A DNA stretch of 13,257 bases from Acholeplasma sp. Its GTDB lineage: Bacteria > Bacillota_I > Bacilli_A > Acholeplasmatales > Acholeplasmataceae. Location of the stretch: contig DURF01000208.1 of NCBI GenBank assembly GCA_012837395.1, positions 1-13,257 of the forward strand, in the 5' to 3' direction. A program made the position numbers and the translations under genes. Under the pieces are notes generated by a model. That model did no database searches. It was not told the origin of the DNA and was given only the letters and a program-made list of their open reading frames with translations. Shown piece after piece: positions 1-11,847 of this stretch (position 1 is the stretch's first letter; the number at the start of each line of letters is the position of its first letter).

Positions 1-2559
1 ATGTTAAACAAAGAAAGGAAACTTGTTATCTTTGGCCCACCTGGTACTGGTAAAAGCCAAACTATAACAAGTATTATTGCTAATGCAGTTTTAAATCAAG
101 AAAATGTTTTAGTCGTCAGTGAGAAGAAAGTCGCTCTTGATGTTATTTATTCACGACTTAAAGGTGCATCTAAATATGTAATGTTTATTGATGATGCTGA
201 AAATAAAGCAGAGTTTTATAATAAGCTAAGTAATTTTATTGATCCAACTCCGCCAGTTAGAACAATCAACAACGATATTTATAAATCAGAAGAAGAAATT
301 ACAGAACTTATTAATACACTTGATAACTCTTTGAAACTATTGTTTGAAAAAGAAGATGATGTTATTACGAATGATCTTTTTAATAGATACTTAAAAGACC
401 GCGAAATAGTTGATTTTCTAATTCCAAAACATGTTTTTAATATGTTTAACGAACACTTTAAAAATCTATCATTTAACGATATTAAATCATTAGAAGAAAC
501 ATTTGATACTAACAATAAATTAAACGATTATTTAGCATACCACGAAATGATTGATAAGTATCCATTGTTAAAGAAATTGGAAACTAAAATAACAAGAAGT
601 TCTAAACTAGAATTTAATAAGTTTAATGAAACATATTTATCTTTTATTAATGATTATAATACTTCTAAGTATTTTAGAAAAAGAAAACTAAAAAAACAGT
701 TTTTAAAAGATAATAATTTATATCTTGATTTTTTAACAATTAAAAAATCAACTGATAAAAAGTATTTAAAACTACTTACTTTAGATCCAACACTTCACAA
801 TTATATAAACGAAAACATTAATAAATTAGACAAGATAACAAACAACTATAATAAATTAAACGAATTATCACTTGTTTATTTAAATATGTTATTAAAAGAT
901 GATTTGCTAAAAGATGTTATTGACATAAATAAATATCGCAAATACTTATTTGATGCATATTTCACTGGATATTTAGAAGAGTTTAAAACTAAAAATCAAA
1001 AAGATTTATATATTATCAACGAATATCAAGAAGCTAATAACAAATTAAATGAACTTATTAATGAAAAGATTCAAATTTCATTAGAATCTTTTGAAATGGA
1101 ATTATTTAAAAATGCACTTAACTTTTCAAATACAAAAAGAATTATGGATATTAAACGTATTCTTGAATTAACGAGAAAACCAAGTATTAACGCATTTATT
1201 AATCGCTTCCAACCTGAACTTCAACAAAATGTTAAAATCTGGATGATGACACCTGAAGTAGTTAGTGCTGTTATTCCTTTAGAATATGGCATGTTTGATT
1301 TAGTAATTTTTGACGAAGCATCACAAATGTATGTTGAAAAAGGAATTCCAGCAATATACCGTGCTAAGAAGGTTGTTATTGCCGGAGATCCTAAACAACT
1401 TAGACCTTCAAGTTTAGGTTTTGGTAGAATAAACGATGAAGATGAATTTTATGAAGATGAAATGTTACAAGATGTATCTGTAGACGCTAAGAGCTTGCTT
1501 GATCTTGCTAGGTATAAATATAAAGAAACACTACTTAATTATCACTACCGCTCAAATTATGAAGAATTAATCGCGTTTTCCAATTACGCCTTTTATGAAG
1601 GTAAGTTAATAGTTTCTCCAAACCAAAAATCAAGTGAAAAACCACCAATTGAATATCATTATATTGAAGACGGTATTTTTCATAAAAGACAAAACGAACA
1701 AGAGGCAAAAGCAGTTGTTGATTTAATTAAGAAAATATTTAGACAAAGAAAAAATAATGAAACAATTGGTGTTATTACCTTTAATAGTACCCAAAGAGAT
1801 TTAATTGAAAATTATATCGATCGAGAACTCTTTAAAAGAAGTAGTTATCAAAAACAATTTGAAAATGAATTAAATAGAAGAGATGATAATGAAGATAAAA
1901 GTTTATTTGTGAAAAACATTGAAAATGTCCAAGGTGATGAAAGAGATATAATTATTTTTTCAATGGGTTATGCTAAGGATAAAACTGGAATAGTAAAAAG
2001 AAGATTTGGTTGGTTAAATCATGAAGGGGGACAAAATAGATTAAATGTTGCTATAACAAGAGCAAAAGAGAAAATCTATTTTGTAACATCACTTTACCCT
2101 GAAGAGTTTAAAGTTGATGATTTAACTAATGATGGACCAAAGTTATTAAAAGACTTTATGAGGTATTGTTACTTCATATCAAACAATAAAAAAGACTTAG
2201 CTAAAATTGTTTTAAATGAACTTCATTCGACAGAAGAAGCAACAAAACTAGTTTTAACTAATACTTTAATTGAAGATGTTAAAAAACGTTTAGAGCGCTT
2301 CAAATATGAAATACACACATCTATTGGAATAGGTGAATATCATATAAGCCTTGGCGTATATGATAAGGATAATAAAATGTATAAACTAGGTATTATATGT
2401 GATATTGTTGATAATAATAATTTAAACTCAAGAAAAGACCTTCTTCATCAAGAAAGATATTTAAAAGCCAGAGGCTGGCAAATATACCGTGTATTTTCAA
2501 ACAACTGGTACATTGATCCAAACAAAGAAATTAGAAAGATAAGAGAATTACTTAAATGA
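1..2559 (+). CDS. UPF1-like superfamily 1 DNA/RNA helicase with degenerate C-terminal nuclease-like domain (5' partial)
   Basis: An AAA_11/AAA_12-type SF1 helicase of the group usually found with DUF4011 and MTES_1575 domains. Visible motifs, numbered from the ATG at 1: Walker A GPPGTGKS at residues 12-19, Walker B DEAS at 438-441, motif III GDPKQL at 462-467, motif IV YHYRSN at 514-519, motif V VQGDERD around 643-649 and motif VI NRLNVAITRAK at 679-689. A long, probably helical insert separates Walker A from Walker B. The C-terminus (about 770-850) resembles the MTES_1575 PD-(D/E)XK fold (LGI.CD at 796-801, GWQIYRV at 825-831), but two expected acidic residues are replaced. Walker A only 12 residues from the first Met is too close for this family, and no ribosome site is visible, so the true start probably lies upstream. 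ATP-dependent translocation is expected; the biological role is unknown. The stop overlaps the next gene's ATG. Confidence 0.85.
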   Translation: MLNKERKLVIFGPPGTGKSQTITSIIANAVLNQENVLVVSEKKVALDVIYSRLKGASKYVMFIDDAENKAEFYNKLSNFIDPTPPVRTINNDIYKSEEEITELINTLDNSLKLLFEKEDDVITNDLFNRYLKDREIVDFLIPKHVFNMFNEHFKNLSFNDIKSLEETFDTNNKLNDYLAYHEMIDKYPLLKKLETKITRSSKLEFNKFNETYLSFINDYNTSKYFRKRKLKKQFLKDNNLYLDFLTIKKSTDKKYLKLLTLDPTLHNYINENINKLDKITNNYNKLNELSLVYLNMLLKDDLLKDVIDINKYRKYLFDAYFTGYLEEFKTKNQKDLYIINEYQEANNKLNELINEKIQISLESFEMELFKNALNFSNTKRIMDIKRILELTRKPSINAFINRFQPELQQNVKIWMMTPEVVSAVIPLEYGMFDLVIFDEASQMYVEKGIPAIYRAKKVVIAGDPKQLRPSSLGFGRINDEDEFYEDEMLQDVSVDAKSLLDLARYKYKETLLNYHYRSNYEELIAFSNYAFYEGKLIVSPNQKSSEKPPIEYHYIEDGIFHKRQNEQEAKAVVDLIKKIFRQRKNNETIGVITFNSTQRDLIENYIDRELFKRSSYQKQFENELNRRDDNEDKSLFVKNIENVQGDERDIIIFSMGYAKDKTGIVKRRFGWLNHEGGQNRLNVAITRAKEKIYFVTSLYPEEFKVDDLTNDGPKLLKDFMRYCYFISNNKKDLAKIVLNELHSTEEATKLVLTNTLIEDVKKRLERFKYEIHTSIGIGEYHISLGVYDKDNKMYKLGIICDIVDNNNLNSRKDLLHQERYLKARGWQIYRVFSNNWYIDPNKEIRKIRELLK

Positions 2560-3431
2560 AACAAAACACAATAAGAAATGTCATAATCTTTAGTTTAATA
2601 GGTAATATATTACTAACGGCTATTAAATTAACATTTGGATTACTAGGTAATTCTAATAGTTTAGTTAGTGATGGATTTAATTCCCTATATGATATATTTG
2701 TAAGTATTTTAATATTAGTAGTTTTAAAGGTATCTAATAAAACTCCCGATAAGAATCATCCTTACGGTCATGAGAAGTACGAAGGAGTTATGTATTTATT
2801 TTTAAGTTTCATTATTTTATTAACAGGTGGTTTTTTATTAAAAAGTGGCATTAGTAACCTGTTAAAGTATTTTAATGATAATACGGTAATTATTAAACCA
2901 GAAAGTTATACAATGATTGTTGCTGTTGTAGCACTAGTGATAAAGTTTGTTTTATTTGTTGTTACTAATAAAACAGCAAACAAATATAACTCAAGCAGTC
3001 TAAAGGGAGACACTAAAAATCATTTATATGATATGCTATCTACTTCAGTAAGCTTACTTAGTATAATACTTGCGCAATTTGGTTTATTATATTTTGAACC
3101 AATAGCAACCATAATAATATCAATATTCATATTATATTCAGTCTATGAAATGATTAAAGAAGCTGTTTCGTTTTTAGTTGATGAAGCTCCTAAAAAAGAA
3201 AAAGTAAGAGCGATCCATCAAACAATTCTAAATTGTGATGGCGTAATTAAAATTGATGATCTAAAAACAAGGAAACATATGAACCATATTTATGTCGATG
3301 TTGAAATTGCTGTGGATAGAAATTTATCACTACTTGAAGCACATAAAATAGCAGAAGATGTGCACTTAGAAGTAGAAAAAGAGTTTGATGCGTTGCACTG
3401 TATGGTGCATGTTAATCCATATAAATCTTAA
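2556..3431 (+). CDS. Cation diffusion facilitator (CDF) family metal efflux transporter
   Basis: A 291-residue inner-membrane metal/proton antiporter of the CDF family, of usual length. About six hydrophobic segments lie at roughly 8-30, 35-58, 78-98, 118-137, 157-177 and 180-198. The family loop motif HPYGHEKYE is at 68-76, and a cytoplasmic C-terminal domain (about 205-291) holds the usual VDVEIAVD and LLEAHKIAEDV blocks. The transport-site motif in TM2 reads D39-GF-N42-SLY-D46 and in TM5 D152-TK-N155-HLY-D159. Asn therefore replaces the His/Asp of zinc-type members in both half-sites. Asn at the TM2 position is known from manganese CDFs, so Mn (or Fe) rather than Zn is an inference, not proven. 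The ATG overlaps the helicase stop in ATGA, which suggests translational coupling. No terminator follows directly. Confidence 0.88.
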   Translation: MKQNTIRNVIIFSLIGNILLTAIKLTFGLLGNSNSLVSDGFNSLYDIFVSILILVVLKVSNKTPDKNHPYGHEKYEGVMYLFLSFIILLTGGFLLKSGISNLLKYFNDNTVIIKPESYTMIVAVVALVIKFVLFVVTNKTANKYNSSSLKGDTKNHLYDMLSTSVSLLSIILAQFGLLYFEPIATIIISIFILYSVYEMIKEAVSFLVDEAPKKEKVRAIHQTILNCDGVIKIDDLKTRKHMNHIYVDVEIAVDRNLSLLEAHKIAEDVHLEVEKEFDALHCMVHVNPYKS

Positions 3432-3490
3432 ATGTTAACATAAATATATAAAAGCTATAAATTATATTGTAAATATTAATAAAATAAGAA

Positions 3491-3527
3491 GGGGGAGGTA
3501 TTCAAATATTTACTCTTATTTGAATAC
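3491..3527 (+). promoter_or_regulatory. Strong Shine-Dalgarno abutting an 11-bp hairpin
   Basis: GGGGGAGG (3491-3498) is one of the strongest ribosome-site sequences in the window, but the nearest ATG is at 3541, too far for normal initiation. A perfect 11-bp inverted repeat, 3498-3508 with 3517-3527 and an 8-nt loop, starts at its last G. If folded, the base of the hairpin is 13 nt from the ATG, so the helix could bring the site near the start of the 36-residue ORF. The in-frame ATT at 3508, nine bases from the site, is a less likely start. The pairing is directly visible; the role is inferred. Confidence 0.5.
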
Positions 3528-3540
3528 GTGTGTAAAAACA

Positions 3541-3651
3541 ATGAGAAAAAACAAAGTATTTAGTAAAGTTTTAGGGGTTATTACCGTTATGTTATTATCT
3601 TTAGCATTTAGTAATTTTTATAAATCCAATAACGAATATGATGATAAGTAG
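3541..3651 (+). CDS. Small membrane or secreted peptide, 36 residues, unknown
   Basis: A short ORF with a basic N-terminus (MRKNKVFSK), a hydrophobic stretch (about residues 10-27, VLGVITVMLLSLAF) and a polar acidic tail ending NEYDDK. This is the layout of a signal peptide or a single-pass membrane peptide. The tail after the hydrophobic part is too short for a mature enzyme but would suit a processed signalling peptide of the Phr type; that is speculation, as no Phr- or RRNPP-type receptor gene is nearby. A terminator starts 35 nt after the stop, so the ORF sits in a plausible transcript. The ribosome site is remote and separated from the ATG by the hairpin at 3498-3527. It could instead be the remnant of a longer secreted protein. 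I do not recognise a family. Confidence 0.45.
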   Translation: MRKNKVFSKVLGVITVMLLSLAFSNFYKSNNEYDDK

Positions 3652-3686
3652 ATAACTAAAGTAGCTGACAATAACTTATTTAATGA

Positions 3687-3716
3687 AAGGTATGATGATC
3701 ATAGCCTTCTTTTTTA
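3687..3716 (+). terminator. Intrinsic terminator after the small peptide ORF
   Basis: AAGG-TATG pairs with CATA-(G bulge)-CCTT across a 5-nt loop (3687-3708), followed by CTTTTTTATT. It is the first good terminator after the helicase/CDF genes and probably ends both that operon and the 36-residue ORF. Confidence 0.65.
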
Positions 3717-3748
3717 TTATCTAGGAAAGTTCGTCTTTTCTAGATAAT
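3716..3748. repeat. 14-bp hairpin directly behind the terminator
   Basis: ATTATCTAGGAAAG (3716-3729) pairs with CTTTTCTAGATAAT (3735-3748) through 14 bp with one G-T pair and a 5-nt TTCGT loop. It begins at the last bases of the preceding terminator's T-run. No T-run follows it on either strand, so it is not itself a normal terminator. It may be an operator, a transcript-protecting structure or a mobile-element relic. From here to about 3878 I see no gene. Confidence 0.5.
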
Positions 3749-3877
3749 AGTGATATATCCATTTAAACAAACAGAAAACCCTTCGTAAGAAGGTATAAAC
3801 AATATTTACTTAACAACAAATTATTTAGAATTTAAAACTGGAATGGTTATAATAAAGTAGACACAAAGATAAGAGAA

Positions 3878-3905
3878 TAAAAAAAGAAACTTACTAAGAA
3901 GTTTC
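3878..3905 (-). terminator. Intrinsic terminator of the XRE gene, with the stop codon in its loop
   Basis: Read on the minus strand, GAAACTT (3905-3899) pairs with AAGTTTC (3892-3886) over a 6-nt loop, followed by seven T (3885-3879). The 5' arm encodes the last residues (E-T-S) of the XRE protein and its TAG stop lies in the loop. Confidence 0.75.
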
Positions 3906-4133
3906 CGTTATTACTAAAATATCATTAATTTGAACACTAAATATTTTAGCCAAGACAACTAAATTATCAATTGTTGGTAATGAATCACCCCATTGCCATT
4001 TATAAATGGCTTGAGGTGATTCAAAGCCTAAAATGTTTTGAAGGTCTTTTACCGTCATATTATTATTAATACGCAACTGTTTAATATTTTGTCCTGTTAG
4101 TTTTAAATTAATTACAGGATATACAAATTTCAT
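3894..4133 (-). CDS. XRE-family HTH transcriptional regulator, 79 residues
   Basis: A minimal Cro/C1-type DNA-binding protein. After about 14 N-terminal residues comes a complete HTH_3 domain (about 15-70): GQNIKQLRINNNMTVKDL, then the recognition region around SPQAIYKWQWGDSLPT and the closing helix NLVVLAKIFSVQINDIL. There is no second effector or dimerisation domain, so it probably binds as a dimer through the HTH region. It follows the DUF2828 gene by 10 bases, and its ribosome site (AGGAGGT, 4139-4145) overlaps that gene's TAG stop. The two genes are therefore co-transcribed and probably translationally coupled. It may autoregulate the promoter at 5802-5830; this is an inference. A terminator overlaps its 3' end. 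Confidence 0.88.
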   Translation of the reverse strand: MKFVYPVINLKLTGQNIKQLRINNNMTVKDLQNILGFESPQAIYKWQWGDSLPTIDNLVVLAKIFSVQINDILVITETS

Positions 4134-4143
4134 AAAAGACCTC

Positions 4144-5610
4144 CTATTTTTTTACTAAATCATCAACTTCACGATATCTTTCCAATGTTTTTAACATAAA
4201 TTCATAAGGTGTTGCAGCTTCAAGGTCATTGTTAATAACAAGTTCTAAGATTTTTTGGCTAGATCCACTAACAAGTCTTACTCCAAGTTCATTAGAAGTA
4301 ACTGGGAAGTGAACATCTCTCGCTTCAACATTCCAAAACACTAACTCAGGCATTTTTAAACCTAGTTCATTAAACTTATCCTTATATGTTTTAAAGGTTG
4401 ATTCACCTTCAACACAATAATCAAACTCCATATCACTAATAATAATGACTTGTTCAACCATATCTTCTTGTTTAACTCTACCTTTTTTAGCAACATTTAA
4501 TAATAGTTCATATACCTTACTTATGTTAGTGTTAGCAACCTCATCAAAACTCTCGACAAACTTTAACTTCTCATCAATAGTAACATCAGGTATTTTAATT
4601 AATTGTGGGTTTTCACTAAAGGTAATAAAATGATTTTTAAAAGGTTCAGGTAATTGTTCAGCAAAGTAGATCGCAAGTGATGTTGCTACTTGCATTGGAA
4701 CAAGCGAACCATGACCATAAAGCATTGAACTAGAACCATCTCTTACAACAATAGCTTTAGTTTTAGCTTCAAATCTCGGTAGAGCTTTCCAATATGTATC
4801 TTGGAATCTTTGATTAATATCATAACTATGAGTTTGGGCTATAAAAGCAACATCACTAACACTTGCAGTGTTAGTATTCATTTTAGCTAAACCACTATCA
4901 ACTCTATCTAAATATTTAGAAAACCTTTCTAAATCATTTCTAATAAATGCTTTATTATATTTTAACATCGCAAGTGATGGAACACCTTCATAATTAAAGG
5001 AATAGTTTTTTGTTCTTAAATAGTTTTCTAAAATTCTTCCTTTTCTAAGTTTACTTAAAGTTTTTCTATATTCTTCATTAGTCATATTTAAATACTTAGC
5101 TATTTTTCTAGCAAGTAATCTCGCTTCTTTATTACTTGTATTAATAGAAGGTAACCATTTAGCCAAAAGAGATACTTTGTCATTGTTTTTAAGTTTATTT
5201 AAATCACTATCTAACTCTGTTTCAATAAACTTTAAAACATCATTTTCAATTGGCGTATTAAAGCCAGCTAAGATATCATCATATCTTCCATACTTAGGAA
5301 TTAAAGGTATTAACTTTTTTGCTAAGTTTGGATTTAAATTAGCAAACATATTAAATAACAACCTAAAAGAGTTTCTCTCTCCCAAACCATTTAAAATATC
5401 TCTTAAATAAAGCAATATCTTCATAGTTATAGTACTATCTTCAAAGTAAGATCTAATAAATAAATTACTCAAATCATAGTAATTATAACGCAAACCACCC
5501 ATTAAAGAATATAGATCAAGTGTATATTTGCCAGTAGTAGTAAATGCAGTATCGCCTTTTTCGGTTGTAGTTTTAATTAAATCGTTTCTTAACGCTTCAA
5601 TATAGTTCAT
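4144..5610 (-). CDS. DUF2828 protein: TROVE-like N-terminal region plus VWA domain
   Basis: A 488-residue cytoplasmic protein. The N-terminus has the DUF2828 signature (T-EKGDTAFTTTGKYTLDL around 15-33, GGLRYNYYDL, then YLRDILNGLGERNSFRLL), a helical-repeat region resembling the Ro60/TROVE ring. The C-terminal half is a von Willebrand factor A domain with a complete MIDAS: D291-G-S293-S-S295, T361 (in NTN) and D393 (in IISDMEFD). These would bind Mg or Mn. Ro60-type proteins bind Y RNAs and misfolded RNA; DUF2828 itself has no assigned function that I know of, so RNA binding here is an inference. The start ATG is preceded by GGAGGT at suitable spacing. A long structured leader (5647-5795) and a good promoter lie upstream; an XRE gene follows in the same operon. 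There is no signal peptide or membrane segment. Confidence 0.85.
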   Translation of the reverse strand: MNYIEALRNDLIKTTTEKGDTAFTTTGKYTLDLYSLMGGLRYNYYDLSNLFIRSYFEDSTITMKILLYLRDILNGLGERNSFRLLFNMFANLNPNLAKKLIPLIPKYGRYDDILAGFNTPIENDVLKFIETELDSDLNKLKNNDKVSLLAKWLPSINTSNKEARLLARKIAKYLNMTNEEYRKTLSKLRKGRILENYLRTKNYSFNYEGVPSLAMLKYNKAFIRNDLERFSKYLDRVDSGLAKMNTNTASVSDVAFIAQTHSYDINQRFQDTYWKALPRFEAKTKAIVVRDGSSSMLYGHGSLVPMQVATSLAIYFAEQLPEPFKNHFITFSENPQLIKIPDVTIDEKLKFVESFDEVANTNISKVYELLLNVAKKGRVKQEDMVEQVIIISDMEFDYCVEGESTFKTYKDKFNELGLKMPELVFWNVEARDVHFPVTSNELGVRLVSGSSQKILELVINNDLEAATPYEFMLKTLERYREVDDLVKK

Positions 5611-5646
5611 TTATAATACCTCCAAATAAACATGAAATAATTAGGG

Positions 5647-5666
5647 GCGGACCATAATTGGTCCGC
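5647..5666 (-). promoter_or_regulatory. 8-bp GC-rich hairpin between the tandem motif and the ribosome site
   Basis: GCGGACCA pairs perfectly with TGGTCCGC around a 4-nt loop. It is 3 nt from the closing helix of copy B and about 20 nt upstream of the GGAGGT site. No T-run follows on the minus strand (CCCCTAATTATTTC), so it is not a standard terminator. It may stack on copy B or mark an RNA 3' end. Confidence 0.55.
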
Positions 5667-5669
5667 TAC

Positions 5670-5729
5670 AAGATGCATAAAGTTAATCTGATGTTCTCTA
5701 CACCTGTTTAAATATGCTGTTAGCATCTT
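5670..5729 (-). repeat. Tandem RNA motif, copy B
   Basis: Minus strand: AAGATGC (5729-5723) pairs with GCATCTT (5676-5670). UAACAGCAUAU follows the 5' arm; the inner stem is TTAA plus GGTGT-[AGAGA]-ACATC plus TTAA; CUUUAU precedes the 3' arm. Relative to copy A, two adjacent pairs (C-G, A-U) are changed to (U-A, G-C), so the pairing is kept. Confidence 0.65.
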
Positions 5730-5738
5730 CCCTATAAC

Positions 5739-5791
5739 AAGACACATAATAATAACTTTACTTTAAAGTAGATAGTTGCTGTTAGTGTCTT
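5739..5791 (-). repeat. Tandem RNA motif, copy A
   Basis: Minus strand: AAGACAC (5791-5785) pairs with GTGTCTT (5745-5739). Next to the helix is UAACAGC, then an inner hairpin AACT-TACT-[TTAA]-AGTA-AGTT, then AUUAUUAU before the 3' arm. A competing small hairpin, AGTGT-AAAG-ACACT, could form with the bases just upstream and would break the closing helix. Confidence 0.65.
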
Positions 5792-5801
5792 TACACTTCA
5801 T

Positions 5802-5830
5802 ATTATACGAGATTAATTATTCTTTGTAAA
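5802..5830 (-). promoter_or_regulatory. Sigma-A-type promoter of the DUF2828/XRE operon
   Basis: Minus strand: -35 TTTACA (5830-5825), 17-bp spacer, -10 TATAAT (5807-5802). This is the best-formed promoter in the window. Predicted start near 5795, just before motif copy A. Confidence 0.75.
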
Positions 5831-5893
5831 TAAACCGCTAGTTTAATTTGTTTCATTGTGTTAAAATTAAAACAATAAAGGAAGTGATTAATT

Positions 5894-6415
5894 ATGAAGA
5901 AATGTTTAATTGTTGTTGATTTCCAAAATGATTTTGTTGATGGTGCACTAGGATTTAATGGTGCAGAAAAACTAGATCAAATTATTGAAAATAAAATTAA
6001 GGATTATTTAATTAATAATCAAGATATCTTATATACTCTAGATACTCATTATGATAATTACTTAGAAACCCAAGAAGGAAAAAGACTACCTATCATACAC
6101 TGTATTGATAATACTAAAGGTCATGAAGTATATGGTAGTACAGGAAAGTATTTAAAAGATGCTAAAAAAGTATTTAAGAAAAATACTTTTGGTTCACTTG
6201 AACTAGGAAACTTTTTAAAAGATAAAGACTATGATGAAATAGAAATAGCTGGTCTAGTTACAAACATGTGTGTTATCTCTAATGCGATTATTGCAAAATC
6301 AGCTCTACCAGAAGCAAGAATAGTAGTTGATAAGAATGCATCACTTAGTTTTGATAAAGACTTACACAATAAAACTCTTGATGTTTTAAAAGGTATGCAA
6401 GTAGATATAATATAG
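5894..6415 (+). CDS. Nicotinamidase/isochorismatase-family cysteine hydrolase
   Basis: A 173-residue cytoplasmic amidohydrolase. The family triad is visible: D9 (VVDFQNDF), K96 (KNTFGS) and nucleophile C126 (GLVTNMCV). The metal site typical of nicotinamidases is also present: D50 and H52 (LDTHYDNY) with H69 (PIIHC). The metal site points to nicotinamidase (nicotinamide to nicotinate plus ammonia, NAD salvage) rather than isochorismatase, but close amidases share it, so the substrate is not fixed. Length is slightly below classic PncA. The start follows AAAGGAAG at good spacing. It is a single-gene unit, divergent from the DUF2828 operon, ended by a strong terminator at 6441. The upstream promoter is not clear to me. 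Confidence 0.88.
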   Translation: MKKCLIVVDFQNDFVDGALGFNGAEKLDQIIENKIKDYLINNQDILYTLDTHYDNYLETQEGKRLPIIHCIDNTKGHEVYGSTGKYLKDAKKVFKKNTFGSLELGNFLKDKDYDEIEIAGLVTNMCVISNAIIAKSALPEARIVVDKNASLSFDKDLHNKTLDVLKGMQVDII

Positions 6416-6440
6416 TAAAAAGTATAATATGATATTGACT

Positions 6441-6484
6441 TCCTCCAGATAATTGCTTTTAACACAATTATCTGGAGGAGTTTT
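6441..6484 (+). terminator. Strong intrinsic terminator of the nicotinamidase-like gene
   Basis: TCCTCCAGATAATTG (6441-6455) pairs perfectly with 6465-6479 (15 bp, 9-nt loop), followed by GTTTT. Confidence 0.85.
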
Positions 6485-6503
6485 ATCAGCTTATTAAGTA
6501 AAT

Positions 6504-6536
6504 AGAGGGTTCATATCAAATCGATATGAACCCTCT
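6504..6536 (-). terminator. 14-bp hairpin terminator after the DJ-1/PfpI gene
   Basis: AGAGGGTTCATATC (6504-6517) pairs perfectly with 6523-6536 over a 5-nt loop. It begins 4 nt after the minus-strand stop codon at 6541. The following minus-strand bases (ATTTACTT) are only moderately T-rich. It sits between convergent genes and may act on both strands. Confidence 0.7.
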
Positions 6537-6540
6537 TAAA

Positions 6541-7059
6541 CTATTCTTTTAAAGCTTCAATTATTAAAGGTAGGTATTTAGGTAAATCAGGCGGTCTACG
6601 CGCTGAAATAATATGTCCATCTCTAATTGCTTCAACATCATGCCAAATAGCACCTGCATTAGTTAAATCATCTTTAATGCCTGGTGTTGATGTTACATTA
6701 ACACCTTTTAAGACATTAGCAGAAGCAAGTACCCAACCAGCATGACATATTTGTCCAATAACTTTTTTGTTTTCATTCATATGTTTAACAAAGTCTAAGA
6801 CTTTAGGTAGTCTTCTTAAGTAATCTGGTGCCCATCCACCAGGAATTAATAAGGCATCAAAGTTTGTTATTTCAACTTTGTCAAAAGCAAGATCACTTTT
6901 TACAGTTAAACCGTATTTACCAACATAATCATGATTAGCCAGTTCACCAGCTACTAAAACGGTTGCTCCAGCTTCTCTTAAACGAAGAATTGGATACCAT
7001 AATTCTAAATCATCAAAGTCTTTACTAACAATAGTTAAAACTAATTTATCTTTAAGCAT
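6541..7059 (-). CDS. DJ-1/PfpI family protein (glutamine-amidotransferase-like fold)
   Basis: A 172-residue cytoplasmic protein of the PfpI/YhbO type, the group that holds putative intracellular proteases, deglycases and glyoxalase-like stress proteins. The nucleophile elbow is QICHAGW with C105 followed by H106; the family end motif SARRPPDLPKY is near the C-terminus. The acidic residue that assists the Cys (Glu in the FED of PfpI) is Asp16 here (FDDLEL, E19 kept). Start choice: the GTG at 7071 is part of the ribosome site AGAGGTG, and the ATG at 7059 follows it by 9 nt, so 7059 is preferred. An extended -10 promoter lies just upstream. A nitroreductase and other redox genes are adjacent, which suits a role in carbonyl or oxidative stress, by inference only. 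Confidence 0.87.
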   Translation of the reverse strand: MLKDKLVLTIVSKDFDDLELWYPILRLREAGATVLVAGELANHDYVGKYGLTVKSDLAFDKVEITNFDALLIPGGWAPDYLRRLPKVLDFVKHMNENKKVIGQICHAGWVLASANVLKGVNVTSTPGIKDDLTNAGAIWHDVEAIRDGHIISARRPPDLPKYLPLIIEALKE

Positions 7060-7082
7060 ATAATTAATCACCTCTTTAGTTA

Positions 7083-7091
7083 ATTATAACA
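7083..7091 (-). promoter_or_regulatory. Extended -10 promoter of the DJ-1/PfpI gene
   Basis: Minus strand TGTTATAAT: perfect -10 (7088-7083) with TGn. No convincing -35. Predicted start near 7076, giving a leader of under 20 nt with the ribosome site almost at its 5' end. Confidence 0.55.
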
Positions 7092-7126
7092 AATAGCTAA
7101 GTCTTGATATAACTATATACATAGAA

Positions 7127-7158
7127 TAAAAAAATAATGGAAAATAATTTCCATTATT
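7127..7158 (-). terminator. Intrinsic terminator of the nitroreductase gene
   Basis: A perfect 11-bp stem (7158-7148 with 7143-7133), 4-nt loop, and a T-run on the minus strand continuing to 7128. It begins 3 nt after the stop codon. Confidence 0.85.
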
Positions 7159-7160
7159 AA

Positions 7161-7769
7161 TTAATAATATTTAACTGCATCATCTAAACTAATTCTATAT
7201 GAATCATAGCCAGCATCTTTAGCCTTACCTAGGGATACAATTAAGATTGGTTGTAAGTTTTCATCTTCAATATTAAGCGCGCTTAATATTGTTTGTTTAT
7301 TAAATCCTGCAATTGGACATGTATCATAACCATACTCTTTAGCAACTAACATTAATTGCATTGCTAAAAGTCCTCCATCTAAATAACCTTCATTAAGAAT
7401 TCTTGCTTTATTATAATTGTTATTACGTTCTTTAATAATATCTTTTTGACGATTAGCAACTTCTTTAGGTAGGAAACCTAAATGCTCTGAATCACTAAAT
7501 ACTTTTATACCTGTTTCAAATTTATTTAAATCTGTAGCAATTATTATAAAAGCACTAGAAGTATCTAATTGTAATATATTACCAAACATATGTGGTTTAA
7601 TTTTTTCTTTCGCTTCTTTTGATTCAACAACAATCATTCTTGTTGGTTGTAAGTTCATTGACGATGGAGCTCTTAGTGCTAATTCAAGCATTTCATTTAA
7701 TTCATTTCTAGGAATTTTAAAGTTCTCATCGTAGTTACGAACTGATTTTCTATTTAAAAATATTGACAT
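7161..7769 (-). CDS. Nitroreductase-family FMN oxidoreductase
   Basis: A 202-residue flavoenzyme, the usual length for NAD(P)H-dependent nitroreductases of the NfsB/YodC type, which work as cytoplasmic homodimers. The FMN-phosphate motif RKSVRNYDE is at 7-15, the second FMN-binding block APSSMNLQPTR around 34-44, the DGGLLAMQLMLVAKEYGYDTCPIAGFN stretch in the middle of the C-terminal half, and a final SLGKAK block. It should reduce nitro compounds, quinones or similar substrates; the true substrate cannot be told. The ATG is preceded by AGGAGTG at 7 nt. It has its own extended -10 promoter, so it need not depend on the M28 gene upstream, although I see no terminator between them. Its own terminator follows directly. 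Confidence 0.9.
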   Translation of the reverse strand: MSIFLNRKSVRNYDENFKIPRNELNEMLELALRAPSSMNLQPTRMIVVESKEAKEKIKPHMFGNILQLDTSSAFIIIATDLNKFETGIKVFSDSEHLGFLPKEVANRQKDIIKERNNNYNKARILNEGYLDGGLLAMQLMLVAKEYGYDTCPIAGFNKQTILSALNIEDENLQPILIVSLGKAKDAGYDSYRISLDDAVKYY

Positions 7770-7790
7770 ATTCTCACACTCCTAAAAAGT

Positions 7791-7799
7791 ATTATAACA
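7791..7799 (-). promoter_or_regulatory. Extended -10 promoter of the nitroreductase gene
   Basis: Minus strand TGTTATAAT with perfect TATAAT (7796-7791) and TGn; no good -35. Predicted start near 7784, directly before AGGAGTG (7783-7777), so the leader is very short. Confidence 0.55.
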
Positions 7800-7826
7800 T
7801 AAGAAACTAATGGTGGTTATTAAATA

Positions 7827-9026
7827 CTAATTCTCATTATCTTTTTTAATAATATAATTATAAAATACGTTAATTGTGTGATTTATAGCCCTAAATGACA
7901 CATTTTCAATTGTATCATTTGGAGTATGATAAGCCATATTTCTATTATCATTACTCCAAGGCATCCCCATAATTGTGGTTGCTTCTACGTTTATTTTCCC
8001 AAATTCACCAGCATCAGTTCCACCAGTTAAAACTGCGATATTTTGTTTATGTGTTTTAATTCCTAAGTTGCTGGCAACTTTAATTAAATCATCAGCTAGA
8101 CTATCACTTAATTTAACAGTATTATTAATATCACTTGTTAAGAAGAATAACTCATTTTCATCATATAAACATTCAATGTTTAAAAGATAAGTTTTAGTTT
8201 CTAATAAAGCGTCTTTATGAGCTTTAACAAAAGCTCTAGCCCCTCTTAAACCTTCTTCCTCAGCATCAAACGAGGCAAAGATAATTCTTGTATGTTTTAA
8301 TTCATCTTTAGTTCCTTTTAAGTTATAAAAATGTTTTCCAAGCATAAAAGCAACCATCGTTGATGCTAGGTTATCACCAGCACCAGGGGTGGCTTTTTTG
8401 CTTCTAAAGAACCACATTTGTAAAACAAGTAGTAGACCTAGTCCAATAATACCAATTGATACATAATATAAGATATCATGTTTAACAAATATATTAACAA
8501 CCGCTAGCACCATACTCAATAAAACAAACATAATCGAACCAGTTACTCTTAGGCCGTATAATTTAGGCTGATGAATAAAGAAGTTAAAAATAGGTGCACT
8601 ATCATGATGTCCACTTATAATAATTTGTCTTTTAACTTCCGCCTTCGGTTCAATTACACCATAAACATTTCTAGCTTTTCTTTTAGGAAACAAAAAGTCA
8701 ATAATTGGTAAATATCTTATAAACTGTAAATAAAGAATTAAGACACTTACAACTGTTAAAACAACAGTTATTAATACATAACCCAATACAAATGAAACAA
8801 ACCCTAATAAATAACAAATAACTAATAAGTTAATCCAACCTAAAAATGCTCCCTTATTAATATAAAAATCTTCACTAAAAGTTTGATCAGAATATTCTTT
8901 AGCTTCTTCAAATAAATAATCAGCAGTATCAAGACTTGCTTTTGTTCCAGCAAGTCTTGGACCAAACTTCTTAATTATTTCATCGGTTTCATTTATTACA
9001 TCTTTAGTTAATTTATCTATATTCAT
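7827..9026 (-). CDS. Membrane-anchored M28 family zinc metallopeptidase
   Basis: A 399-residue protein with an M28 aminopeptidase core split by membrane segments. Expected metal ligands and catalytic residues: H140 and D142 (GHHDS), D218 (GAGDNLAST), E256 catalytic and E257 ligand (FDAEEEGLRG), E285 (NIECLYD, usually Asp) and H367 (YHTPNDT). Hydrophobic stretches lie at about 58-107 (two or three helices) and 157-207 (two helices). The second set falls between the first ligand motif and D218, inside the peptidase domain. No N-terminal signal peptide is seen, so which side of the membrane the active site faces is unclear. Peptide N-terminal hydrolysis is expected. GAGGTGGG precedes the ATG and a full promoter lies at 9049-9077. 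No terminator separates it from the nitroreductase. Confidence 0.87.
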   Translation of the reverse strand: MNIDKLTKDVINETDEIIKKFGPRLAGTKASLDTADYLFEEAKEYSDQTFSEDFYINKGAFLGWINLLVICYLLGFVSFVLGYVLITVVLTVVSVLILYLQFIRYLPIIDFLFPKRKARNVYGVIEPKAEVKRQIIISGHHDSAPIFNFFIHQPKLYGLRVTGSIMFVLLSMVLAVVNIFVKHDILYYVSIGIIGLGLLLVLQMWFFRSKKATPGAGDNLASTMVAFMLGKHFYNLKGTKDELKHTRIIFASFDAEEEGLRGARAFVKAHKDALLETKTYLLNIECLYDENELFFLTSDINNTVKLSDSLADDLIKVASNLGIKTHKQNIAVLTGGTDAGEFGKINVEATTIMGMPWSNDNRNMAYHTPNDTIENVSFRAINHTINVFYNYIIKKDNEN

Positions 9027-9048
9027 ATTCCCACCTCAATTTTCAACT

Positions 9049-9077
9049 ATTTTATCATATTTACTATCGTATAACAA
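9049..9077 (-). promoter_or_regulatory. Promoter of the M28 peptidase gene
   Basis: Minus strand: -35 TTGTTA (9077-9072), 17-bp spacer ending in TGA, -10 TAAAAT (9054-9049), that is TGATAAAAT. Predicted start near 9042, just upstream of the ribosome site at 9030-9037. Confidence 0.6.
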
Positions 9078-9279
9078 AATTAAGAAATAATTGTTGTCAT
9101 AAACTAAATAATTATCTAGTTATATAGATGAGAGAGCAACTGATAAAGACTGATTATGAGCTGTTGTTTGAGAAGAAGTTAGGGTAAGAATTATTATTGT
9201 ATACTAAAAACCAAAAGTAAACCTAGAACACTTTTCTTTTTGTAAATATGAAGTAAGTATATTAATATGTAGAACATAT

Positions 9280-9312
9280 AAAACTCTCAATATTTATTGT
9301 GTTGAGAGTTTT
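9280..9312. terminator. 11-bp inverted repeat, possible bidirectional terminator
   Basis: AAAACTCTCAA (9280-9290) pairs perfectly with TTGAGAGTTTT (9302-9312). The outer four pairs are A-T, so either strand ends in TTTT. The T-run is short on both strands, so termination may be weak. No clear gene ends here: between 9078 and 9280 I see only AT-rich sequence with a weak 19-codon ORF. Confidence 0.45.
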
Positions 9313-9367
9313 GCTCGTACCTTGCTCGTACCTTGCTCGTACCTTGCTGCCACTCTTGCTGCCACCC
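9311..9367. repeat. Tandem 11/12-bp repeat array
   Basis: Three perfect copies of TTGCTCGTACC (9311-9321, 9322-9332, 9333-9343) are followed by two 12-bp related units, TTGCTGCCACTC (9344-9355) and TTGCTGCCACCC (9356-9367). All begin TTGCT. The array is clearly richer in G+C than its surroundings and lies between the inverted repeat and the small ORF at 9384. The unit is close to one helical turn. Confidence 0.85.
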
Positions 9368-9383
9368 TGAGTTAGGATAATAA

Positions 9384-9488
9384 ATGAAATTCTATAAAAT
9401 ATTAAACATAAGAAATAGAAAATTAAACAATTTAAATTCAATTTATAATGAAAGTAATTTACACTTTAAAAATATAAACAACCAATAA
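9384..9488 (+). CDS. Small basic hypothetical protein, 34 residues
   Basis: An unrecognised short ORF (starting MKFYKILNIRNRKLNN, ending NINNQ), rich in Asn, Lys and Ile, without a hydrophobic segment. Support comes from context: TAGGA (9373-9377) lies 6 nt before the ATG, and a strong terminator starts 4 nt after the stop. No other plus-strand gene ends in this interval, so something must be transcribed into that terminator. The product may be a small protein, or the transcript may be a non-coding RNA with a chance ORF; the Asn/Lys-rich composition is what random AT-rich sequence would give. Confidence 0.35.
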   Translation: MKFYKILNIRNRKLNNLNSIYNESNLHFKNINNQ

Positions 9489-9492
9489 TTCC

Positions 9493-9527
9493 ACCGTTAA
9501 GCGACTATCTCGTTTAACGGTTTTTTT
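9493..9527 (+). terminator. Strong intrinsic terminator without a clear upstream gene
   Basis: ACCGTTAAGCGA (9493-9504) pairs with 9510-9521 (12 bp, one G-T) over a 5-nt loop and is followed by seven T. Canonical for the plus strand. The nearest plus-strand gene of normal size ends at 6415, so it implies a local small transcript. It may also shield the polymerase gene from readthrough. Confidence 0.85.
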
Positions 9528-9552
9528 AACAAAAATTATCTTTATTTTCATC

Positions 9553-9582
9553 TTGCTTTCACAGTCTTTTTACTTATATAAT
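9553..9582 (+). promoter_or_regulatory. Promoter of the Y-family polymerase operon
   Basis: -10 TATAAT at 9577-9582 with a weak -35 TTGCTT at 9553-9558 (18-bp spacer). Predicted start near 9589, just before AAAGGAAG. No Bacillus-type LexA box (CGAAC-N4-GTTCG) is visible around it. Confidence 0.5.
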
Positions 9583-9608
9583 GGAGCCACTAGAAAGGAA
9601 GTTTTAAA

Positions 9609-10886
9609 ATGAATGACTTTAAAAAGTATCAATTAAATCGTAATATACTTTGTATTGATCTAAAAGCTTTTTACGCATCCGTAGAATGCGTTTTAAGAGG
9701 TTTAGATCCTTTTAAGACTCCTTTAGTTGTTGCTGATGCGAAACGCGGTGATGGCTCAATTGTTTTAGCAGTTACTCCGTATTTAAAGTCTTTAGGTGTT
9801 AAGTCAAGATGTAGAGTGTTTGATTTACCTAAAGATATCGATATTATATATGCTAGACCTCAAATGCAAACCTATTTAGAATATACAACTAAAATAGCTG
9901 AAATATATTTAGAGTTCATTAGTGAAGAGGATTTATATATCTATTCTGTAGATGAGGCTTTTTTAGATGTTACTAATTATTTAAAATTATATAATATGAC
10001 AGACTATGAATTAGCTAGAACTATTTTAAATAAAATATATGATGATTTAAAACTAACCGCTGCATGTGGAATTGGTCCAAATATGTTACTTGCTAAGTTA
10101 TCATTAGATATAGAAGCTAAAGATAATAAAGACTTAATAGCAAGTTGGAACTATGATAATTTAAAAGAAAAGCTCCATCCGGTTACCCCACTTTCTAAAA
10201 TGTGGGGTATCGGAAGTAGAATGGAACGTAGATTAAACTTATTAGGTTTAATGAAAATAGGCGATATTGCTAATTATGATGTTAATGATTTAAAGAAAAA
10301 GTTTGGTGTGCTAGGTGAAGAACTTTATTATCATACTCATGGTATTGACATGAGTATGATAAAAGATAAAGGTTTATTAAGAAGTAAACCTAAATCATTT
10401 GGAATATCACAAGTACTTTTTAGAAACTATGACTCAAGTGAAATAACAACCATTATTTTAGAAATGGTTGATGATGTTACATCAAGATTAAGACTTGCTA
10501 GAAAAAGAGCTAAAACTGTTGCCCTTACAATTGGTTATTCGAAAGAATATGAATCAGGATTTTCAAGGCGTGTCACGCTTGAATATCCGACTCATAATGA
10601 ATCGGTTATTTATAAAACATGTCTAGATTTATTTGATTTATATTATGAAGGTTATCCAATTAGAACAGTATCAGTTAGTTTATCTAACTTTGATGAGACT
10701 AATATTCATCAATTATCAATCTTTGATGATGAAGAAGTAGAAATTGAAGAAGAGTTTAAAGTAAAAAGATCAATTGATAAAATTAAAAATAAATATGGTA
10801 AGAACGCAGTTCTTCGTGGATCATCATTAGAAGACCATTCAACTGCCAAATCCAGAAACAAACAAATCGGAGGTCACCATGTATAA
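9609..10886 (+). CDS. Y-family DNA polymerase, UvrX/YqjW type (lesion bypass)
   Basis: A 425-residue translesion polymerase. Catalytic carboxylates are intact: D17 (CIDLKAFYASVE) and D115-E116 (YSVDEAF). F21-Y22 mark the region that excludes ribonucleotides. The block GDGSIVLAVTPYLKSLGVKSRCRVFDLP is typical of the UvrX/YqjW branch rather than DinB. A helix-hairpin-helix thumb follows (WGIGSRMERRLNLLG), then the little-finger domain. A sliding-clamp motif QLSIF lies at 368-372. The C-terminus carries an acidic stretch and a basic tail. The ATG has AAAGGAAG upstream. Its end overlaps the YolD gene by 8 bases, the usual partner in Bacillota. It should copy past DNA damage at the replication fork at the cost of mutations. 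No LexA box is seen, so SOS control is not shown. Confidence 0.93.
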   Translation: MNDFKKYQLNRNILCIDLKAFYASVECVLRGLDPFKTPLVVADAKRGDGSIVLAVTPYLKSLGVKSRCRVFDLPKDIDIIYARPQMQTYLEYTTKIAEIYLEFISEEDLYIYSVDEAFLDVTNYLKLYNMTDYELARTILNKIYDDLKLTAACGIGPNMLLAKLSLDIEAKDNKDLIASWNYDNLKEKLHPVTPLSKMWGIGSRMERRLNLLGLMKIGDIANYDVNDLKKKFGVLGEELYYHTHGIDMSMIKDKGLLRSKPKSFGISQVLFRNYDSSEITTIILEMVDDVTSRLRLARKRAKTVALTIGYSKEYESGFSRRVTLEYPTHNESVIYKTCLDLFDLYYEGYPIRTVSVSLSNFDETNIHQLSIFDDEEVEIEEEFKVKRSIDKIKNKYGKNAVLRGSSLEDHSTAKSRNKQIGGHHV

Positions 10887-11208
10887 AGACAGAGGTATTA
10901 TTAAATGGGCACCATTTGATGCACTTTCTGGTCTTAATGAAATGGTTTTAGGACTAATTAATAAAAAGGGTAAAAGAGATAAACCAATACTATCAGAAGA
11001 TAAGTTAAGTGAACTAGATTTAATATTAAAAGATGCTATTAAAGATAATAATGAAATAATGATTGATTATTATTTAGATGGTTATATTAAAACTACTTAT
11101 GGAGTAATTAAAAAAATCGATGAAATAGAAAAGTTAATTCATTTAAATACAAATGAAAAGTTAAATATTAATGACATAGTTGATATGGAACTATTAAAAA
11201 ATAACTAA
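10879..11208 (+). CDS. YolD-like protein, polymerase partner
   Basis: A 109-residue cytoplasmic protein with the YolD signature DRGIIKWAPFDALSGLNEM at its N-terminus, followed by a small domain ending near YGVIKKIDEIEKLIHLN, which recalls the SH3-like region of the family. YolD-like proteins are encoded next to UvrX/YqjW-type polymerases and have been proposed to play a UmuD-like accessory part; the exact mechanism is not established. The ATG lies inside the polymerase's last codons (ATGTATAA, 8-base overlap), with GGAGG at a suitable distance, so translation is coupled. No terminator follows; the next element is the riboswitch transcript. Confidence 0.9.
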   Translation: MYKDRGIIKWAPFDALSGLNEMVLGLINKKGKRDKPILSEDKLSELDLILKDAIKDNNEIMIDYYLDGYIKTTYGVIKKIDEIEKLIHLNTNEKLNINDIVDMELLKNN

Positions 11209-11213
11209 TTAAA

Positions 11214-11222
11214 TGTTAAAAT
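11214..11222 (+). promoter_or_regulatory. Extended -10 promoter for the riboswitch transcript
   Basis: TGTTAAAAT (-10 TAAAAT at 11217-11222 with TGn) and no clear -35. A start near 11229 would coincide with the first base of the aptamer's P1 strand. Partial readthrough from the YolD gene is also possible. Confidence 0.45.
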
Positions 11223-11229
11223 ATACATA

Positions 11230-11312
11230 CCATGAAGAGAAGGCGAGAGACAAGCTCATTGACCCTTCAGCAACCTACCAAAGGCAAGGTGCTAAAGCTT
11301 GAATGATGGACG
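11230..11312 (+). promoter_or_regulatory. SAM-I-like (S-box) riboswitch aptamer, apparently lacking P4
   Basis: The SAM-I core is recognisable in order: AAGAG (11235-11239), helix P2 GAAGG/CCTTC (11239-11243 with 11264-11268), GCAACC (11270-11275), helix P3 ACCT/AGGT (11273-11276 with 11287-11290), GGTGCTAA (11288-11295) and a P1 3' strand GATGG. P1 pairs CCAT (11230-11233) with ATGG (11306-11309), only four clean pairs. Between GCTAA and P1 there are too few bases for the usual P4 hairpin. The P1 3' strand TGATGG(A)CG (11304-11312) can instead pair with CGCCATCA in the downstream terminator. This gives the classic arrangement: SAM bound, terminator formed, gene off. Confidence 0.75.
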
Positions 11313-11329
11313 AAATAAATGTATTTATT

Positions 11330-11358
11330 ACGCCATCAGTCGATGGCGTTTTCTTTTT
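11330..11358 (+). terminator. Riboswitch-controlled terminator (expression platform)
   Basis: ACGCCATC (11330-11337) pairs perfectly with GATGGCGT (11342-11349) over AGTC and is followed by TTTCTTTTT. Its 5' arm is complementary to 11304-11312 with one bulged A, forming the antiterminator. Confidence 0.85.
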
Positions 11359-11383
11359 GGAAAAACAAAAAGGAGAAAAAAAT

Positions 11384-11611
11384 ATGCGTTATATTGAAGT
11401 TTGGTTTCTTGAAGCATTTGGAAACAACGAGTTACATGTTGATCAAATAGTATATGATGGTGATAGTAATTTAGCAAAGAAAGAACTTGCTAATAGATTT
11501 ATCGGATATACATATGAACTACATAATTTAGAAGGAGGATATTATATTTGTTTCTTTCACAAAAGTGAAAAAAACAAACCAATAAAATCAAATAACGAGA
11601 AAAGAAGTTGA
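11384..11611 (+). CDS. Unknown small protein (75 residues) under SAM-riboswitch control
   Basis: I do not recognise this family. It begins MRYIEVWFLEAFG, continues with an acidic, mixed region and an aromatic YYICFFHK segment near residue 55, and ends in a Lys/Asn-rich tail. No signal peptide or clear membrane helix. The frame is open back to ATGs at 11303 and 11306, but that stretch is the riboswitch terminator and has no ribosome site. The ATG at 11384 follows AGGAGA by 7 nt, so it is the start. S-box leaders normally control methionine or SAM synthesis or transport genes, so a link to sulfur or methyl metabolism is a reasonable guess only. The last 26 bases overlap, in another frame, a winged-helix-like coding remnant, so the C-terminus may be the product of a frameshift. 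Confidence 0.65.
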   Translation: MRYIEVWFLEAFGNNELHVDQIVYDGDSNLAKKELANRFIGYTYELHNLEGGYYICFFHKSEKNKPIKSNNEKRS

Positions 11612-11726
11612 AGTATTACTTGATATTAAAGAGAGTAGAGCAAATTCTATCTTAAAAGGAAAGTTTAATAAAAAACTTTTAGTAAAAAAGGGGACCACAA
11701 TTAATTCGGTTTATAAATTAAAGTAA
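11586..11726 (+). pseudogene. Out-of-frame winged-helix domain remnant
   Basis: The frame one base ahead of the 75-residue ORF reads 46 residues starting NQITRKEVEVLLDIKES and ending TTINSVYKLK before TAA. This resembles the terminal winged-helix of bacterial ATP-binding (AlbA_2/AAA_4) and Fic-type proteins, pattern ITRKEVE-LL-hydrophobic...ILK...LLVKKG...Y-L. It has no ATG, GTG or TTG start, no ribosome site, and a stop (TAA 11583-11585) just upstream. A +1 shift near 11586-11609 would join it to the 75-residue protein, giving about 113 residues. It is either a frameshifted C-terminus or a leftover of a deleted gene. 11727-11788 shows nothing further. Confidence 0.5.
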
Positions 11727-11787
11727 GTTTAATAAGCATCATATAACCTATCTCCCACATTAGCAGTTAAAACAAGTCTTTAGAATA

Positions 11788-11827
11788 CAAAAAAGGGATT
11801 ATATTTCGTCTGAAATATAGTCCCTTT
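11788..11827 (-). terminator. Intrinsic terminator of the ABC permease gene
   Basis: A 16-bp stem with one G-T pair (11827-11812 with 11807-11792), 4-nt loop, and a T-run on the minus strand (11794-11789). It lies about 20 nt after the permease stop. Opposite-strand readthrough has an AT-rich 3' side without a T-run. Confidence 0.85.
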
Positions 11828-11847
11828 CACTATCTTTGAATTAAATA

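Follow-up and report, generated by a model that had tools for sequence, protein, structure and literature searches.

The window analyzed here, a stretch of 13,257 nucleotides from Acholeplasma sp. (GenBank assembly GCA_012837395.1, contig DURF01000208.1, positions 1 to 13,257 of the forward strand), carries on its minus strand a gene whose product combines the domains DUF2828 and DUF7788, preceded by a leader in which a hairpin motif occurs twice (Table 1). As the first-pass annotation of this DNA had described, the two minus-strand copies (A and B) lie in tandem with their starts 62 nt apart, differ in two adjacent base pairs with full compensation, share the single-stranded sequence CTAACAGCA on the 5' side, and are followed by an 8-bp hairpin. 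The transcript start proposed at 3-5 nt before copy A agrees with a promoter-like site that predicts a start near position 5795; this site is a consensus match only, and promoter-like sites between positions 3400 and 6700 were fewer than by chance (14, compared to a mean of 20.7 in shuffles), a caveat on the predicted start. When the 185-nt leader is folded without constraints, its minimum-energy structure contains both stems and the 8-bp hairpin; taken alone, the folding energies were unremarkable (z of -1.8, -1.0, and -0.6) and gave no useful signal. Model R1, whose building set includes both copies, matched copy A at 5735-5793 (E 5.0e-6) and copy B at 5666-5731 (E 1.9e-5), and at E<=0.1 it found no others in the window's own genome; there, the pattern CTAACAGCAN{15,45}TTATG also occurs twice, both times in the leader. 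Consistent with the initial impression that no known riboswitch class is recognizable, an Rfam 15 search of the leader gave no match at E<=1.

Table 1. Features of the DUF2828/DUF7788 locus, numbered from the first letter of the window.
Feature	Position	Strand	Details
Promoter-like site	5802..5830	minus	TTTACA-17-TATAAT, 11/12 matches; consensus match only; predicted start near 5795
Copy A	5739..5791	minus	stem AAGACAC 5791-5785, spacer TAA 5784-5782, CAGCA 5781-5777, insert, GTGTCTT 5745-5739, then G
Copy B	5670..5729	minus	stem AAGATGC 5729-5723, spacer TAA 5722-5720, CAGCA 5719-5715, insert, GCATCTT 5676-5670, then G
8-bp GC-rich hairpin	5647..5666	minus	GCGGACCA-ATTA-TGGTCCGC, without T run; from sequence and leader fold
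Ribosome binding site	5619..5623	minus	GGAGG; from sequence
DUF2828 + DUF7788 gene	4144..5610	minus	488 aa; predicted Ro60/Rsr fold; PHROG 850 'RNA-binding protein'

The motif is not confined to the window. A protein search in 160 genomes of the order located the gene in 16 genomes (17 genes), and a family search at the level of the class (395 genomes) detected PF25043 in 15 genomes, adding 8 new genes; of these 25 genes, two (G014 and G196) were dropped because their contigs end before the upstream region, and 23 were readable. Upstream copies, one to three per gene, are present at 22 of the 23. The conserved unit consists of a 7-bp stem, a short spacer of free sequence (mostly 3 nt), the element C(A/T)GC(A/C), a variable insert, the second stem strand, and a G; the 3'-side UUAUG and the inner stems are not kept in relatives. 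Alignment A2 comprises 31 copies, with the second copies in L152, L156, and L163, the nested copy in L165, the first copy in L182, and the copies in L177 excluded; its invariant columns comprise one stem G together with the C paired to it, three positions of CAGC (C, G, and C), the T in the 3' strand, and the G that comes behind the stem. In this alignment 99.1% of the stem cells are paired, a percentage that is biased because the copies were picked by a rule demanding the stem; 47 double changes were counted, compared to 13.3 in shuffles (0 of 500 as high), and pairing drops to 30-49% in the slid control.

Within the cellular leaders, six loci (L151, L152, L153, L170, L171, and L174) always have AAGACAC as the first stem and AAGATGC as the second, a constancy that may be read as avoidance of cross-pairing. 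Locus L165 has three copies between about 270 and 75 nt upstream of the gene, one of them nested in the insert of another, and L177 combines a near copy (5-nt spacer and CTGC) with a second copy about 400 nt upstream. In nine of the 23 leaders (L151-L155, L159, L170, L171, and L174), a hairpin can be seen by eye after the final copy; L169 and L179 have a T run directly after the copy, and L166 has a hairpin with a T tail. Such features would fit the release of a short RNA. In L164 (1448-1502), GGAGG lies inside the motif, against the 3' strand, with the start codon directly after, an arrangement that makes this locus a natural candidate for autoregulation. Across the whole cellular loci (91 kb), matches to a relaxed descriptor numbered 42 in sense and 5 in antisense orientation; some of the sense matches, located in genes or with unrelated stems, are probably due to chance.

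Model R1 found 28 matches at E<=0.1 in 16 of the 160 genomes, and at E<=0.005 it retained 24 matches in 13 genomes, every one of them among the 16 that bear the gene; the gene-bearing genomes left without a match at this threshold are G014, G107, and G143 (the filters in this R1 search were stricter). Weak matches in G092, G099, and G014 (E 0.007-0.08) look like chance and were set aside, as were the results of a loose pattern: in genome contigs its hits, among the matches listed, were chance-like and scattered over many phyla, and in 88 family genomes it matched 26, with only the two window copies being useful and a reversed control matching about equally. Five of the 24 matches lie outside leaders; copies in G117 adjoin tRNA genes on two contigs, one of them with a tRNA-Asn cloverleaf within its insert, and a weaker match in the same genome (E 0.013) contains a permuted tRNA-Gly-like sequence. 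One of these two contigs also carries L167, the second DUF2828 gene of G117, which shares 90% identity with a gene from a viral contig in IMG/VR. Genome G018 has an additional copy (E 0.0096) 3' of the gene, ahead of a terminator-like hairpin.

The association of motif, gene, and gene strand recurs in viruses, and the further covarying instances that the first-pass annotation had expected from a model search near DUF2828 genes were found in cells and phages alike. Two scans of IMG/VR, the second represented by its best 80, provided at least 115 loci; in 98 of these, some of them near-duplicates, R1 searched on both strands (1.33 Mb) gave 179 matches at E<=1, which fell in 65 loci and always on the gene strand. 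A strict descriptor, applied to 95 viral DUF2828 loci after deduplication, found 250 gene-strand copies in 79 loci, compared to 6 on the opposite strand and 11 matches in block-shuffled sequence. All seven stem pairs covary among the best 150 R1 matches (136 distinct), with 189 cells of two-sided change compared to 36 after shuffling, in a set that was found with a model already containing the stem. The protein itself was matched in 666 of 50,697 phage records in INPHARED; within 3 kb of the gene in 14 of these phages, 34 matches fell on the gene strand and none on the opposite one. Copies were convincing in ten of the 14: Listeria A511, with three copies just before the DUF2828 gene gp57, Escherichia coli wV8, Mycobacterium Lumos, Bacillus 2S-4, Campylobacter F352, Enterococcus H1 and PEF1, Staphylococcus S-CoN_Ph4, Aeromonas LAh_8, and Fusobacterium FNU3. 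The sole match in Vibrio 1.081.O and one match in wV8 were discounted, both lying inside genes. The E. coli K-12 phage adrianh, outside the 14, has four copies and none on the opposite strand; in wV8, adrianh, Lumos, and S-CoN_Ph4, copies are located downstream of the gene. This motif family is real, conserved, and widespread, and it is absent from Rfam.

The insert of the viral copies links the motif to tRNA mimicry. In 27 of the 250 descriptor copies (21 loci), a T-arm, a closed acceptor stem, and a D-arm are predicted in that order within the insert; 6 copies have a tRNA-like insert in normal order and 217 have neither, and random segments from the same loci gave 7 in 5000, or 0.35 expected per 250. 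Most of these circularly permuted copies (24 of 27) are 113-140 nt long; when examples were folded freely, L309, L335, and L275 regained both the arms and the outer stem, and L213 did so less clearly. N-CCA stands at the start of the acceptor loop in 10 of the 27, with about 0.4 expected from base frequency. The Rfam consensus of the Y RNA YrlA (RF02553) has the same arm order, and in nine loci it gave five matches within motif copies (two in L309, and one each in L275, L238, and L335), at 24-43 bits and thus below its cut-off of 69; RF02553 has no match in the window. ARAGORN, run on copies and doubled inserts, found few tRNAs, since permuted copies have another element in place of the anticodon arm, and gave way to the descriptor with its random-segment control. 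An earlier version of this descriptor, applied to whole loci, had given 13 matches inside R1 matches; of the others, 52 were on the gene strand and 6 on the opposite strand. By eye, many of the 52 lie in further motif copies and others are ordinary tRNAs nearby. Three permuted-tRNA-like sequences (L240:2070, L246:1601, and L249:3381) have the T-arm, closed acceptor stem, and D-arm and no obvious surrounding CAGCA stem.

As a control, the same descriptor was applied to nine loci with canonical TROVE genes (PF05731; 64 kb), a small sample, and gave one sense and one antisense match; R1 had no match at E<=1 in these loci. The descriptor count is the better control, because R1 is weak on distant DUF2828 phages, as seen in five further phage loci where it found 3 matches compared to 11 by descriptor. 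Sub-threshold YrlA matches appear in six of the nine PF05731 loci, all on the gene strand and directly upstream in Deinococcus gobiensis, for example; it follows that the stem motif accompanies the DUF2828 branch, and the tRNA-mimic module is seen in both. Four such matches that adjoin canonical TROVE genes (L353:1956-2209, L356:2439-2866, L355:2806-2926, and L352:2349-2463) are probably Y RNAs missed by the Rfam cut-off.

Pfam recognizes DUF7788 and DUF2828 in the window protein and nothing else; PF05731 has no match in this protein, and no PF05731 gene was found in the window's own genome. The predicted structure combines a helical-repeat ring with a von Willebrand factor A (vWA) domain as in Ro60/Rsr, with 384-405 aligned residues in the best four rows and a sequence identity of 10-15%, and a DxSxS sequence resembling a metal-ion-dependent adhesion site (MIDAS) is invariant across 12 sequences; a sequence search of the Protein Data Bank (PDB) did not find Ro60. 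Directly after the Ro-like gene, the window (3894-4133, minus strand), the Listeria phages A511 and CKA15, and Enterococcus PEF1 have a small helix-turn-helix regulator gene; set against helix-turn-helix proteins encoded close to the Ro-like gene of three phages, the window protein matched that of PEF1 weakly (E 4e-6) and those of A511 and Mammaliicoccus PMS3 not at all.

No description of the motif appears in the published titles and passages searched on Y RNAs, TROVE and Ro-like proteins, YrlA, permuted tRNAs, and phages; for DUF2828, only plant papers surfaced, judged by their titles. Listeria phage CKA15 has abundant non-coding RNAs upstream of CKA15_055, a gene matched to Rsr by HHpred, and they were suggested to be possible Y RNAs; the CKA15_055 protein is listed among those in purified particles, and the most transcribed non-coding region is 26,236-26,727 of OR088597.1 (PMC12282133). 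CKA15_055 corresponds to A511 gp57, and CKA15 is 97.2% identical over the three-copy stretch of A511. The YrlA module, its modification, and PNPase have been described (PMC8394870), and YrlA has been suggested to inhibit an anticodon nuclease (PMC7790460); TROVE or Ro60-like proteins and YrlA are mentioned in phages (PMC7824862; PMC7765460), and yrlA is named among mycobacterial RNAs (PMC9569102). Since Chen 2014 is cited for mycobacteriophage Y RNAs (PMC12282133), the permuted copy of Lumos may be a Y RNA that has already been recognized.

The hairpins in the window are, in our view, probably compact Y-RNA-like domains that are bound by the Ro60-fold protein encoded next to them, with the insert as an exchangeable module. 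The 7-bp stem with NNN and CAGC(A/C) would most likely be the grip site of the DUF2828/DUF7788 protein, and the insert between the strands a swappable part that holds no tRNA in the window copies and a predicted permuted tRNA mimic in about one in ten phage copies. In the window bacterium, the mRNA of the gene itself would open with the copy pair, which takes up roughly its first 130 nt; in the simplest mechanism the protein captures its own leader, and the captured RNA, processed close to the GC hairpin, would persist as a stable short RNA and act as a partner of the Ro60-like ring or as its lid. Alternatively, the captured leader might limit translation of the gene. The first-pass suggestion of an RNA bound by a TROVE-like protein gains from the gene association, the predicted fold, the permuted inserts, and the YrlA matches. 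What the analysis shows is how the motif is built, that it covaries, and that it is linked to the gene and to the gene's strand; the Ro60-like fold and the YrlA-like module are predictions, and binding, release, and function are inferred.

If regulation were the whole story, excess protein would bind the leader hairpins in cis and block translation or alter mRNA stability, without any role in trans. The leader position at nearly all readable cellular loci, the ribosome binding site inside the motif of L164 with the start codon right behind it, and the confinement to one leader in the window genome speak for such control; yet the downstream copies in wV8, adrianh, Lumos, and S-CoN_Ph4, the copy in the 3' untranslated region (UTR) of G018, the free-standing copies in G117 and viral contigs, and the tRNA mimics as inserts render an exclusively cis-acting role unlikely. 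The tandem aptamer that had also been proposed, a riboswitch by which a metabolite governs the gene, would explain the tandem leader position, the conserved internal-loop bases, and the covarying stem; it fits poorly and is very improbable, since copies also occur downstream of the gene, in a 3' UTR, within tRNA clusters kilobases away, and nested as in L165, while position, copy number, and insert (from about 30 nt to a whole tRNA) vary freely around a very small conserved core tied to one protein family. Copies are often found between phage tRNA genes, as would be expected if the motif had served in the processing or maturation of phage tRNA clusters before it was linked to the DUF2828 gene; this origin is highly unlikely given that the cellular loci are mostly without tRNA clusters in the sequence read and that tRNA clusters adjoining canonical TROVE genes lack the motif. 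Repeated hairpins in variable number might also mark a DNA element for recombination or a mobile hairpin; such an element would hardly keep so strictly to one strand with respect to the gene, nor would it be expected to show compensatory changes in its stems and tRNA-like inserts read on the same strand, and we regard it as extremely improbable.

Several observations weigh against the Y-RNA-like interpretation preferred here, beside the selection bias of alignment A2. L167 has no copy in its leader, with two copies on its contig about 8 kb off; 16 of the 95 viral loci have no strict-descriptor match; no convincing copy was seen in Vibrio 1.081.O, ValKK3, and Erwinia Kaldavass (three of the 14 phages); ValKK3, Kaldavass, and PMS3 gave no descriptor match, PMS3 having variant copies by eye only. 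YrlA misses other permuted copies in the nine loci, such as both in L298 and one in L238, and by eye the tRNA module is absent from window copies A and B. Finally, about 0.6 kb separate the motif stretch from the most transcribed CKA15 region, located upstream of it, and the A511 equivalent of this region is without a descriptor copy. The system is organized like a Y RNA system, yet by sequence it is recognized neither as YrlA nor as TROVE.

A wider reading is offered tentatively, as possible rather than probable: a second, separate Ro60-Y RNA lineage with its own stem-NNN-CAGCA grip, into which phages plug permuted tRNAs, and in which cleavage in the acceptor loop could yield a tRNA-like molecule. 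Its first half, a DUF2828 branch with its own RNA grip and exchangeable modules in phages, is well supported; processing and charging of the tRNA-like part are speculation. With N-CCA in 10 of 27 acceptor loops, cleavage of the RNase P or RNase Z type could give a true acceptor end, with the protein-binding stem replacing the anticodon.

Elsewhere in the window, the sole Rfam match above cut-off is an S-adenosylmethionine (SAM) riboswitch (RF00162, 11227-11312, plus strand, 48.8 bits) upstream of a small open reading frame at 11303-11611; a strong terminator-like hairpin with a 15-bp stem (6504-6536, minus strand) lies right behind a DJ-1/PfpI gene.

If the Y-RNA-like interpretation is correct, a conserved and uncharacterized protein family, found in hundreds of phage records, would acquire a partner RNA and a probable biochemical function, and Ro60-Y RNA systems would comprise at least two branches that differ in their RNA stems and have a tRNA-mimic module in common. 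The motif would also account for part of the non-coding space in the tRNA clusters of E. coli, M. smegmatis, Listeria, and Campylobacter phages, and would provide small, tractable systems for the role of Y RNAs, be it exonuclease steering, decoys for tRNA-cutting enzymes, or protein regulation. Among known systems, the putative Y RNAs of CKA15 lie upstream of the same DUF2828 gene as the A511 motif copies; the excerpts of PMC12282133 give neither motif nor structure for them. The DUF2828 protein resembles Ro60/Rsr in the predicted helical ring, the vWA domain, and the MIDAS-like DxSxS, and differs in the missing PF05731, the low identity, and the lack of a PDB sequence match. YrlA, the partner of Rsr/Ro60 (PF05731), has a stem region unlike the 7 bp-NNN-CAGC of the motif, most motif copies have no tRNA module, and the partner protein is DUF2828 and not PF05731, whose canonical loci are without the 7-bp-stem motif; what the two RNAs share is a closing outer stem, a tRNA mimic (in 27 of the 250 phage copies), and a gene beside that of a protein with a known or, for DUF2828, predicted Ro60 fold.
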